Shown here: one piece after another, positions 38,299-49,071 of the stretch
Layout: the number at the start of each line of letters is the position of its first letter
How positions within the stretch are numbered: the first letter of the stretch is position 1
NCBI RefSeq assembly: GCF_018861045.1
Contig: NZ_JAHKQJ010000007.1
Span: forward strand, 961,511-1,025,510
Reading direction: 5' to 3'
Source of the DNA: Octadecabacter sp. B2R22
GTDB taxonomy: Bacteria > Pseudomonadota > Alphaproteobacteria > Rhodobacterales > Rhodobacteraceae
Length of the DNA stretch: 64,000 nt
Program-made: the position numbers and the translations under genes
The notes under the pieces: model-generated
Told to the model about the DNA's origin: nothing
What the model saw: only the letters and a program-made list of their open reading frames with translations
Databases searched by the model: none

Positions 38299-38375
38299 CG
38301 GGCTATGGCGCAGCCTGGTAGCGCGTCCGTCTGGGGGACGGAAGGTCGCAGGTTCGAGTCCTGCTAGCCCGACCA
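38299..38375 (+). tRNA. tRNA-Pro (anticodon GGG), CCA encoded
   Basis: A 77-nt cloverleaf. The acceptor stem CGGGCTA pairs with TAGCCCG; the D-arm is GCGCAGCCTGGTAGCGC, the anticodon loop CTGGGGG gives GGG, and the T-arm has the TTCGAGT loop flanked by GCAGG/CCTGC. The discriminator A is followed by an encoded CCA. It decodes CCC/CCT proline codons. A terminator follows directly. Confidence 0.97.
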
Positions 38376-44947: not shown

Positions 44948-46684
44948 TTAGCGCATCTCTTCCGCTGGAGTTACGCCCAAGATACCCAAACCGTGAGAAA
45001 TTACAACGCTGGCGGCACGAATGAGGGCGATTTTCGCCTGTGACGCCGGGACATCGTCTTCTTGCAGGAACCGCAAAGACACATCGTCGTTGCCACGATT
45101 CCAAAGTGCGTGCACCTCAGACGCCAGATCATACAGGTAGAATGCAATACGGTGCGGTTCGTGGCCCTTAGCCGCAATTTCCACCAAGCGCGGCCATTCC
45201 GCGATCTTCGCAGCAAGGGTCAACTCGGCCTCGGACGCCGCAAGCGCCATGTCAGCCGCCGCCAGATCAGACGTATCAATCCCCGCCTCAGCGGCTTTGC
45301 GCAGCACAGAATGAACCCGCGCGCTGGCGTATTGAACGTAGAAAACCGGGTTGTCTTTGGATTGTTCCGTGACTTTGTCGAAATCAAAATCAAGCGGCGC
45401 GTCGTTTTTGCGCGTCAGCATATGGAACCGCGTTACATCGCTGCCAACCTGTTCAACCAGATCGCGCAACATAATGAACGTGCCCGCCCGTTTGGACATT
45501 TTGAACGGCTCACCATTCTTGAACAACTTCACCAGTTGGGTGAGCTTGATATCCAGCGGAACGCTGTTGCCAGACAACGCAGCAACAGCCGCCTTCATCC
45601 GCTTAACGTATCCGCCGTGGTCGGCACCAAACACATCAATTAGTTCGTCGAAGCCTCTGGTAACTTTATCAAAATGGTACGCGATATCGGGTGCAAAATA
45701 GGTCCAAGCGCCGTCAGACTTTTGGATCGGACGATCGACATCATCGCCAAAATCAGTGGACTTGAACAGGGTCTGTTCACGCGCTTCCCAATCTTCTGGC
45801 AGCTTACCTTTTGGCGGCTCAAGCGTGCCGCGATAGATCAGGCCTTTGTCATCAAGATCCTTAATCGCAGCTTCGATCCGACCGGTGCCGTATAGTGATT
45901 TCTCGGAATAGAAGACGTCCATCTTCACACCGATAGACGCCAGATCATCGCGGATCATCTGCATCATTGCGTCGGTGCCGAACTCGCGTACGTCTTCCAA
46001 CCAATACTGTTCGCCCTTGTCGATATAAGCATCGCCAACCTTGGCTTTCAAAGCCTCGCCAGCCTCGATCAGATACTCACCAGGATATGTTCCATCTTCA
46101 AACGTCACCTCTTGGCCGTGGGCCTCAAGGTAGCGCAAATAGACGGAGCGCGCCAAAACATCGACCTGCGCGCCACCATCGTTGATGTAGTATTCGCGCG
46201 TGACGTCGTAGCCCGCGTAATCCAGCAGAGACGCCAAAGCATCGCCAAAAACCGCGCCGCGCGTGTGACCCACGTGCAACGGCCCTGTCGGGTTCGCACT
46301 TACGTATTCGACGTTAATTTTCTTATCCGCACCCAAAGTGGACTTGCCGAACGCAGGATCGCTCAACGCGGCCTTAACCACCCCCGCCCAAACGTTCGCA
46401 TTCAAACGCAGGTTCAAGAACCCTGGCCCTGCGACCTCGACACCCGCGATACGGGGGTCTGCGGCCAGCTTAGCGGCCAGCGCATCAGCAATGTCACGCG
46501 GTTTGGCTTTGGCAGGCTTGGCCAAAACCATCGCCGCATTGGTCGCCATATCACCATGACTTGCATCGCGTGGTGGTTCGACCGCAACGTTGGCAAAATC
46601 AAGCCCTTCGGGCAAAATGCCTTCGGCCGTCATAGCCTCAAGGCAGGTAATCACGGTGCTGCGGATATCGGCGAACAGGTTCAT
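44948..46684 (-). CDS. argS: Arginyl-tRNA synthetase
   Basis: A 578-residue class I synthetase. It has the N-terminal Add-1 domain, the HIGH motif as HVGH within [19 protein letters not shown] (about 128-146), the [20 protein letters not shown] region holding the KMSK motif, and the DALR anticodon domain with [16 protein letters not shown]. All catalytic parts are present. The start overlaps no other gene; the divergent COX1-like gene begins 62 bp away. A 67-bp gap separates it from the SPOR gene. Confidence 0.97.
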
Positions 46685-46746: not shown

Positions 46747-47841
46747 ATGACCCGTATCTTGTTCTCTCTATCTTGTTTGGCAGCTCTTGGTGTTGCGCTC
46801 ACCGCATTCGTCATCCGTTGGGAACTCGCATCCCCCGGTGCTTCGCTTTTTCTGACCCATGACGCACAGCCGGATGGATATCAGTACCTTGCCTTTGTAC
46901 AGGTCCACAGATTGACGTGTTTTCTGGCTGTAATGCTTGTCGGAACTGCATTGTCATCTGCATCGCGTGACAAAGGCGCGCTCTTATCAGCCCTGTTTAT
47001 GTGGTTGGGCCTTGTTCTTAGCGTCAGCCTTACCGTCTTGGTGATCTTACTCACATTACCGCCCATCGGACTGGAAACCGCTGAATCCCCCGGCGCAGGA
47101 GTGGGCTGGATCCTCTATCCGCCGCTCTATACACCCACGTCTTTATTGCTTCAGATGTTTCCCGGCCTCGACCCGTTCTTGCTCGGACATGTCGGGCAAA
47201 TGATCGCCCTGCCCGCAAATGCCATGCTGTACCTCGGGGTCTACGCGATGGCGTCGACACTCCCAAAATTCCGGTTCATGAGCGTCGTTGGCCTCGTGAC
47301 TGTCATTGCCGCCTTGCTGCTCACGACCCGCTCAATGCATATGATCACCGTGCCATATGCGTGGCTTTGGATTGCGGCCCTCGTGGTTCCATTTCTCGTT
47401 TGCGCCGCGCTGTCATTGATGGCCGAGCGCCGCCCTTGGCTGATTATTATGACCTTTGGCGTTGTCTTTATCACTGTAACGCCTGCCGCCCTCGCACAGA
47501 CAACCGATGGTCTTGCGCTGAACGGCACCATGGCAATTATCGCCATTCAGTACCTGTTCCCCATGGGGCTTGCATGGTTTGCCCTCCCCGCGCTCCTGCT
47601 GTTTACGAGAGATGCCCCCCTTCAACGGTGGAAGGTCTGGGCCATTCCAACAACTATCGTCACATCACTCTGTATTTGGGTAATACCGCTGTTTCACTTG
47701 GGCAGGATCGGAATGCCGGCGCACTACGTTGACTACCCGAGCGCCTTCGCACCTCTCAACCTTGAGGTCTCAATCGGCGTAGCCGTTTTCGCAATGATTT
47801 ATCTTACCGTCATCGCGGCGCTCCTGCGCCGCCGCGCCTAA
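46747..47841 (+). CDS. COX1-like membrane protein lacking the heme/copper ligands
   Basis: A 364-residue, ~10-helix membrane protein. Segments align in order with cytochrome oxidase subunit I: IRWELASPG (23-31) with the family's RLELAxPG; VQVHRLTCF (51-59) with the AHGLIM heme a ligand region; GAGVGWILYPPL (116-127) with GTGWTVYPPL; GRIGMPAHYVDYPSAFAPLN (319-338) with the GMPRRxxDYPxAFxxWN end. But the metal sites are broken: HPEVY reads HVGQM (148-152), the HH pair reads MH (197-198), and the HFH heme ligands read AIQ (266-268). The oxidase should be inactive. I know no named family for this; it has no coxB/C neighbour. Confidence 0.65.
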   Translation: MTRILFSLSCLAALGVALTAFVIRWELASPGASLFLTHDAQPDGYQYLAFVQVHRLTCFLAVMLVGTALSSASRDKGALLSALFMWLGLVLSVSLTVLVILLTLPPIGLETAESPGAGVGWILYPPLYTPTSLLLQMFPGLDPFLLGHVGQMIALPANAMLYLGVYAMASTLPKFRFMSVVGLVTVIAALLLTTRSMHMITVPYAWLWIAALVVPFLVCAALSLMAERRPWLIIMTFGVVFITVTPAALAQTTDGLALNGTMAIIAIQYLFPMGLAWFALPALLLFTRDAPLQRWKVWAIPTTIVTSLCIWVIPLFHLGRIGMPAHYVDYPSAFAPLNLEVSIGVAVFAMIYLTVIAALLRRRA

Positions 47842-48974
47842 CCCATCAGGCGCTCATGGGTCTCAATCGCGAAACGGTCTGTCATGCCCGAAATGTAATC
47901 AGACACGATCCGTGCCAAAGCAGTTTCATCCGCCGCCGCCGCCACGTCTTTGCGCCATTGTTTTGGCAGATGCTCGGGCTGGGTCATGAAAAGCGGGAAC
48001 AGGTCTTCGACAACTTGCGTCACGTCAGCCCGCATCTTCACCACGCTTGGTGCGCGATACATCTGTGTAAACAAGAACTTACGCACGACCTTAAGATCAG
48101 ACCATAATTCAGGTGAAAACTGCACCATCATCCGGCCCGCGCCGCGAATATCTGCGCAGGTTTGCGGGCCAAGCTCGGCAAGGTTGGCACGACTGACGTT
48201 GATCACATCCTCAACCAACACCCCAAAGAAGCGCCGCAAGGCTTCGTGACGACGGCGGTATTTATCAAGGCTCGGGTACTTTGCATCCACTTCACGAAAA
48301 CAGGCCCCGACGATGGGCAGGTGCAACAGATCATCCGTGCTGAACAATTCCGCCCGCAACCCGTCATGAATATCGTGGTGATTGTAGGCCACATCGTCCG
48401 CCAACGCCGCAACCTGTGCTTCGGCACTGGCATGGGTTTGCAGTTCCAGATTATGGCGTTCGTTATAATCGGCGAGCGCATAAGGCACCGGTTCGCCAAC
48501 AGGCCCGTTGTGTTTGGCGATCCCCTCTAAGGTCTCCCACGTCAGGTTCAGCCCGTCCCACTCGGCATAATGCCTTTCAAGCGACGTCACGATGCGGATC
48601 GCCTGCGCATTGTGATCAAAGCCACCGTAAGGCTTCATCAGCTCGCCCAACGCATCCTCGCCTGTGTGGCCAAACGGCGTGTGCCCAAGGTCGTGGGCCA
48701 AAGCGACGGCCTCGGTCAGTTCTCCGTTCAGACCCAAAGTGCCTGCAATAGTGCGGGCAACCTGAGCAACTTCGATCGAATGGGTCAGACGGGTGCGAAA
48801 ATAATCACCCTCATGTTCCACAAAAACTTGGGTTTTGTGCTTTAGCCGCCGAAATGCGGATGCATGAATGATCCGATCGCGATCCCTCTGAAACGGAGAG
48901 CGAAATTCACTTTCATCTTCAGGGTAAAGCCGCCCGCGCGTTTGCGCTGGACTGCAAGCGTAACTCGCCGTCAT
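47838..48974 (-). CDS. dgt: Deoxyguanosinetriphosphate triphosphohydrolase-like protein
   Basis: A 378-residue HD-domain hydrolase releasing triphosphate from dNTPs. It starts MTASYACSPAQTRGRLYPED and carries FRRLKHKTQVF, LTHSIEVAQVAR and the HD motif ALAHDLGHTPFGHTGED, with DDVAYNHHDIHDGLRA as the later metal ligand region. It is the short type 2 dGTPase-like form. The start at 48974 is chosen, since longer frames have no homology. It is convergent with the COX1-like gene, with a 4-bp overlap, and divergent from the A-type carrier. Confidence 0.92.
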   Translation of the reverse strand: MTASYACSPAQTRGRLYPEDESEFRSPFQRDRDRIIHASAFRRLKHKTQVFVEHEGDYFRTRLTHSIEVAQVARTIAGTLGLNGELTEAVALAHDLGHTPFGHTGEDALGELMKPYGGFDHNAQAIRIVTSLERHYAEWDGLNLTWETLEGIAKHNGPVGEPVPYALADYNERHNLELQTHASAEAQVAALADDVAYNHHDIHDGLRAELFSTDDLLHLPIVGACFREVDAKYPSLDKYRRRHEALRRFFGVLVEDVINVSRANLAELGPQTCADIRGAGRMMVQFSPELWSDLKVVRKFLFTQMYRAPSVVKMRADVTQVVEDLFPLFMTQPEHLPKQWRKDVAAAADETALARIVSDYISGMTDRFAIETHERLMG

Positions 48975-49071
48975 AATCTGTCCCAATCGTTGCGTCATGG
49001 ACGACACTGCCTTGTCGCCTCTGCCTGCCCCACCTATATTGAAACCATCATCCAACCTAAAGGCCGCAATC

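Follow-up and report, generated by a model that had tools for sequence, protein, structure and literature searches.

The 364-residue membrane protein encoded at 46747-47841 of the window (the whole 64,000-nucleotide stretch of Octadecabacter sp. B2R22 DNA that was analyzed) belongs to a family that, as profile searches and alignments establish, descends from cytochrome oxidase subunit I (COX1) and carries none of the ligands of the oxygen-reducing heme-a3/CuB centre. Nearly half of the aligned short members keep both His ligands of the low-spin heme, and the window's own protein keeps one. Below, we describe the gene and its relationship to COX1, the residues that are kept and lost, and the distribution of the family, and we weigh the roles that the protein may have.

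The gene, its neighbors and its descent from COX1

The gene comprises an intact frame on the forward strand, with an ATG at 46747 and a stop codon at 47839-47841. It lies 62 bases from argS, which runs in the opposite direction, and its 3' end overlaps that of the dgt frame by 4 bases. The first-pass annotation had described an intact frame packed against dgt and away from other cox genes; the start, the stop and the overlap agree with this, as does the finding that the neighbors are argS and dgt. No redox partner gene adjoining the gene appeared in the window's list of open reading frames. The features that we refer to are as follows.

44948..46684, minus strand: argS, the divergent neighbor, which also adjoins the gene in relatives
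46747..47841, plus strand: COX1-derived, ligand-poor membrane protein (364 aa), from the open reading frame and homology searches
46816..46818, plus strand: Arg24, counterpart of the conserved Arg that closes COX1 helix I (found in 17 of 20 members and in all 10 CtaD rows)
46906..46908, plus strand: His54, matching the helix-II low-spin heme ligand (His in 16 of 20 members and 7 of 7 of the genus)
47092..47127, plus strand: GAGVGWILYPPL, the COX1 helix III-IV loop motif, from a PDB phmmer alignment
47548..47550, plus strand: Gln268, in place of the helix-X low-spin His by HMMER and hhalign; MAFFT is one residue off
47710..47760, plus strand: GMPAHYVDYPSAFAPLN, the COX1 GMPRRYIDYPEAFAxWN motif, in which the alignments read the Arg pair as Ala-His
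47838..48990, minus strand: dgt, the convergent neighbor (5' end approximate), which adjoins the gene in part of the relatives

The sole tRNA found in the window, a tRNA-Pro (GGG), is located at 38299-38375. A sequencing or frame artefact appears unlikely, as 7 genomes of the genus carry an uninterrupted frame. In the 3.3-Mb source genome, PF00115 finds two full-length oxidase subunits besides this gene, one of them CtaD-type with HPEVY, HH and HFHY (L001) and the other CcoN-like by eye (L002); the gene at 46747-47841 is therefore an additional copy rather than the only oxidase subunit of the cell.

The similarity to COX1 is faint for the single sequence and, by profile, firm once relatives are included. 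With the 364-residue protein alone, a Pfam scan gave no family at E 10, PDB phmmer gave matches at E 2.3-8.8, and TIGR02891 matched residues 280-360 at 2.9e-5 with 22.9 bits, the cut-off being 670.75, so that the protein falls below the curated family cut-off for CtaD (TIGR02891/PF00115). A 7-row profile of the genus matched R. sphaeroides COX1 at 1.2e-5, and an 18-row profile of the family did so at 2.9e-16, which supports the similarity that the first-pass annotation had proposed to check by profile search. At E up to 1, PF00115 matched 1 of the 18 members (6.7e-15) and TIGR02891 matched 7 of the 18 (best 2.8e-16); in hhalign against ten CtaD rows, the genus scored 96.4% and seven members with both low-spin His scored 98.1%. 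Taken by themselves, the weak or absent single-sequence scores would allow that the resemblance arose by chance or through a shared membrane-helix composition, but the two profile values, the PF00115 match of one member and the colinear order of the motifs virtually rule this out. NnrS-like membrane proteins are also COX1-like; NnrS was absent from the 6 Pfam families that the 18 members hit between them (E up to 1).

The protein resembles CtaD of the R. sphaeroides aa3 oxidase in its colinear motifs, its helix-II His and its helix-I Arg, and differs from CtaD in that it is without the CuB and a3 ligands, is about 190 residues shorter, is encoded away from the other cox genes and is far less conserved. 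The match to COX1 had been described as running along the length of the protein; the similarity stands, but its extent does not, since CtaD is 557 residues long and the window's protein has a shorter middle part. A hydropathy scan identified 10 hydrophobic segments in the window's protein, and 10 in 12 of 18 members (range 8-12). CtaD has 12 transmembrane helices, and the same scan found 10-11 segments in 10 CtaD rows, so that it misses one helix. Between the third helix and the helix that precedes helix X, we counted 3 segments in the window's protein and 5 in the CtaD of the same genome. Together with the lengths of 364 and 557 residues, these counts suggest that two middle helices may have been lost from the window's protein.

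Ligand residues in the family

We aligned 20 short members of the family, three of them near-copies, with 10 CtaD rows by MAFFT. The CuB His, the HH pair and the heme-a3 His were observed in 0 of the 20 members, and none of the 20 has a residue in the CuB column. Of the low-spin ligands, the helix-II His was found in 16 of the 20 and the helix-X His in 11, and both were found in 9, so that a loss of all heme ligands across the family had to be rejected. The helix-I Arg, which we take to be the formyl-group Arg of heme a, is kept as listed above; the ligand roles that we assign to aligned residues are those known from oxidase structures. These counts argue that the oxygen-reducing centre disappeared from the family while the low-spin site was initially retained. 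Orthologues with a full ligand set, which by the first-pass annotation would have marked this copy as a decaying oxidase, were not found among the 20 aligned short members, none of which has CuB or a3 ligands. Loss of ligands across the family thus holds for the CuB/a3 site, but it was not a single clean loss, since different lineages lost different ligands: 2 members (L072 and L073) keep the helix-X His and have lost the helix-II His, and 2 others (L081 and L121) have neither.

In the Octadecabacter/Pseudooctadecabacter genus, all 7 copies have the helix-II His (His54) and none of the 7 has the helix-X His. Accordingly, the window's protein has one of the two low-spin ligands, His54, and Gln268 or Tyr269 at the helix-X position. 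Arg24 and His54 are invariant in the genus, the position of residue 268 is occupied by Q, L or T, and the GMPRRY motif has lost its Arg pair. A motif like GAGVGWILYPPL persists even in a decayed remnant of the gene (L270; GVGWTLYPPL stretch). Residues 271-282, just after the lost ligand, form a genus-specific and well-kept helix-X motif, F/Y-P-L/M-G-x-x-W/F-F-A-L-P-A.

Several residue assignments had been made from the window's sequence at the outset, and most of them agree with the alignments: H54 at the helix-II heme position, AIQ (A266-I267-Q268) in place of HFH, and MH (M197-H198) in place of the HH pair. The assignment of HVGQM (H148) to the HPEVY site is plausible in spacing, and HMMER pairs the helix after H148 with COX1 helix VI; the residue-level placement is not fixed, as the CuB column is empty in 20 members by MAFFT. 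Neither H148 nor H198 is invariant in the genus.

One reading of these patterns is that the protein is a working single-heme cytochrome or a gas or redox sensor; members with both His would carry one low-spin heme, and the genus would have acquired a new coordination by His54 and Tyr269 or an open site. The residues of the low-spin pocket are among the best-kept columns, His54 and Arg24 do not vary within the genus, and MAFFT sets Tyr269, which is Tyr in 6 of 7 copies, at the ligand column. However, in the HMMER and hhalign alignments the 'HY' of HFHY falls on Q268/Y269, so that the ligand column is taken by Gln268 and Tyr269 matches the ordinary Tyr, and one copy (L039) has Asn at the Tyr269 position; Tyr269 as a replacement ligand is thus contradicted by 2 of the 3 alignments. 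In view of these observations, and of the lack of an adjoining redox partner gene in the list of reading frames, we consider a cytochrome or sensor of this kind unlikely.

We also ranked columns by conservation among 11 members from outside the genus, taken regardless of their ligands and with the near-copies L069, L073 and L037 dropped. The Arg and the helix-X His shared 8th rank among 359 columns, and the helix-II His shared 18th; a helix-XI Trp ranked above the heme-pocket residues, and an adjacent His ranked equally high. By this measure, the heme pocket is among the best-kept sites of the family, but not alone. At residues 291-293 of L010 and their equivalents, the helix-XI Trp is present in 11 of the 11 members and a His two residues on in 9 of 11; both also occur in members without heme ligands, and the window's protein is without that His. 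It should be noted that an earlier estimate for invariant heme-pocket columns (P about 1e-5) was circular, its 8 rows having been picked for both His, and was discarded.

Distribution, divergence and loss

A single-protein search across the order matched 4 of 292 genomes, the window's own included, and full-length relatives were found in 7 of 19 genomes of the genus. In a class-wide search (289 genomes), the matches listed apart from the window's gene resembled those of CtaD in starting no earlier than profile position 162. When one genome per genus was searched by profile (394 genomes from 393 genera of Rhodobacteraceae), members appeared in at least 7 genera among the matches listed, with five candidates scored per genome and CtaD competing for places. 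These genera are those of G000/G061, G055, G385, G047, G229, G415 (partial, at a contig end) and G045; in the genus of G055, a relative is present in 7 of 7 genomes.

We also surveyed the region upstream of argS, for 119 of 149 genomes with argS, one locus (L213) being short. In 41 of the 119 loci, dgt lies within 450 bases of argS, too close for the gene to fit between them; in 71 loci a dgt motif occurs within 2.6 kb, and orientation was unsure in 19. The survey revealed at least one further likely short member by position, L121 (G420), and very divergent members may be missed by it. L121 scored E 0.055 by hmmsearch, and by hhalign 86.6% against members with both low-spin His, 0.1% against CtaD and 1.1% against the genus; it is counted as a member on position and these weak scores and was left out of the tree. 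Among 11 loci checked, argS adjoins the gene in all 11 and dgt does so in 5; at a further locus, L234, the order is argS-gene-dgt. We found no conserved neighbor that hints at oxidase biogenesis.

COX1 is among the most conserved enzymes, and CtaD dN/dS was 0 to 0.05 in three genome pairs. In close pairs of the family gene, dN/dS was 0.18 for L036/L037 (one His), 0.06 for L068/L069 (both His) and 0.15 for L072/L073 (one His); in the same three pairs, argS, and dgt where present, gave 0.02 to 0.12. These values show purifying selection in the three pairs of relatives, and the family is kept as a protein, under a constraint that is looser than that on CtaD. With the genus alignment, the close-pair values also support the earlier description of the gene as kept up and ligand-poor. 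The window's gene has no close pair: against L004, its dN/dS was 0.33 at a near-saturated dS of 1.8, and against L036, dS was saturated. In G587 and G588, dS between the copies (L036/L037) is 0.23, versus 1.17 for the flanking dgt and 1.02 for argS, and the gene thus seems to have been exchanged by itself.

Loss is frequent within the genus. Of its 19 genomes, 12 are without a full-length copy, 6 of these being at least 90% complete; argS was found in 12 of the 12 and a CtaD-like match in 10. Broken remnants lie between argS and dgt in G575, G576 and G580 (L266, L267 and L270) among 11 loci, L269 being left out; the weak matches L265, L271 and L272 (E 0.004-0.007) were not counted. In G581, the gap between argS and dgt is 77 bases. 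The nearest argS (97% over 200 aa) is that of G214, where neither the gene nor dgt occurs within 1.5 kb at the site; another frame of 360 aa stands there on the opposite strand, upstream of argS (L261). The gene is thus dispensable. Retention in some lineages and loss in others agrees more readily with an accessory than with a core function, and it is also compatible with slow decay.

The gene could be a relic, a redundant ctaD copy under weakening constraint that decays at lineage-specific speeds and has no present function worth naming. This is consistent with the variation of ligands by lineage, with the three remnants and the further genomes of the genus that have no gene, with the identity of only 40% between the G000 and G588 (L037) proteins when their CtaD proteins are 94.5% identical, and with the dN/dS of 0.33 against L004. 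On the other hand, the 7 copies in the genus are uninterrupted although the window's protein shares only 32-40% identity with the other six, the close pairs give dN/dS of 0.06-0.18, 12 of 18 members have the 10 hydrophobic segments, and the genus helix-X motif (FPLGxxWFALPA-like) is well kept. Decay without function accordingly seems to us a serious possibility, though short of probable.

One of the 119 surveyed loci carries a full oxidase gene at the family gene's site. In G407, which gave a single match in the family-wide survey, the argS survey identified (L191, E 7.6e-17) a complete ctaD of 581 aa (PF00115 5.4e-158) with HPEVY, WAHHM, VAHFHY, MRMEL and GMPRRYIDY. This ctaD and argS are divergent, with about 430 bases between their start codons (L191/L273). 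The ctaD occupies the same site as the family gene and has its orientation, and frames beyond argS resemble the window's SPOR-domain, nagZ, scpA order (names by eye). Adjoining cox genes are thus not diagnostic for CtaD, since this complete ctaD also stands by argS. When the G407 CtaD was ranked by blastp against five family members, it placed 7, 6, 9, 3 and 1 among 11 CtaD rows, rank 1 being for the window's protein at 25% identity; these comparisons show no particular closeness to the family. The arrangement in G407 may represent the family's starting state, or it may be a coincidence.

Possible history and role of the family

The following sequence of events would account for most of these observations. 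A copy of ctaD beside argS, in an ancestor within Rhodobacteraceae, would have lost the heme-a3/CuB centre along with a middle portion that probably held two helices, and would have persisted as a smaller membrane protein that kept the low-spin pocket (helix-I Arg, helix-II His and helix-X His). The family would then have evolved fast and often have been lost. In Octadecabacter/Pseudooctadecabacter, the helix-X His would have been lost as well, so that the window's copy would bind heme through His54 at most, or not at all; full heme ligation would no longer be needed in this genus. The order of losses is one that we infer from a tree with CtaD (L121 left out), in which 4 ligand-state changes occur and the genus forms one clade (100/100); as several forks are open and branches are long, that order is not fixed by the tree.

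Members with both low-spin His would be expected to bind heme, and the window's protein to bind none or to bind it one-sidedly. We regard it as an evenly balanced proposition that the protein is a non-catalytic accessory, in which the oxidase fold holds heme a or docks on partners in aa3-oxidase biogenesis. A role in the oxidase or in heme-a handling would follow from this reading. The first-pass annotation had suggested a new role for the gene, which would fit the present observations, and had named an assembly factor, which the evidence allows. A more specific version, which appears somewhat doubtful to us, is that, once the oxygen-reducing centre had been shed, the family retained just the low-spin heme-a site and worked as a single-heme membrane protein in electron transfer or in the handling of heme a, with a later one-His or heme-free pocket in Octadecabacter, and perhaps with a whole ctaD beside argS as its beginning.

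We are aware of two comparable cases. In the accessible part of its report, the 'deranged COX1-like protein' of Acetobacter is described as located with ctaB, without metal-cofactor-binding residues and retained in genomes, and a structural role is proposed for it (PMC10715153). Likened by that partial description only, the window's protein is also a retained COX1 relative that is short of metal-binding residues, and a ligand-less COX1 is thus not without precedent (PMC10715153). In contrast to the Acetobacter protein, for which the accessible part describes a location with ctaB and all such residues missing, the argS family stands beside argS and keeps low-spin pocket residues, and the window's gene is not located with ctaB (PMC10715153). 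The 'Degenerate B family oxidase' is a member of the heme-copper superfamily that, in the accessible part of its description, is regarded as having abandoned or altered O2 reduction; compared by that description, it is of family B, and the window's protein belongs to another family (PMC6431628). In the open-licence literature, we found no argS-linked family, no survival of the low-spin site only and no graded erosion of this kind.

A family that retains part of the COX1 core, and in some members just the low-spin heme residues, would provide a natural series with which to ask which half of the heme-copper core is able to persist by itself. If the history outlined above is true, the argS-linked family would represent a stepwise natural series of an oxidase core dismantled and reused.
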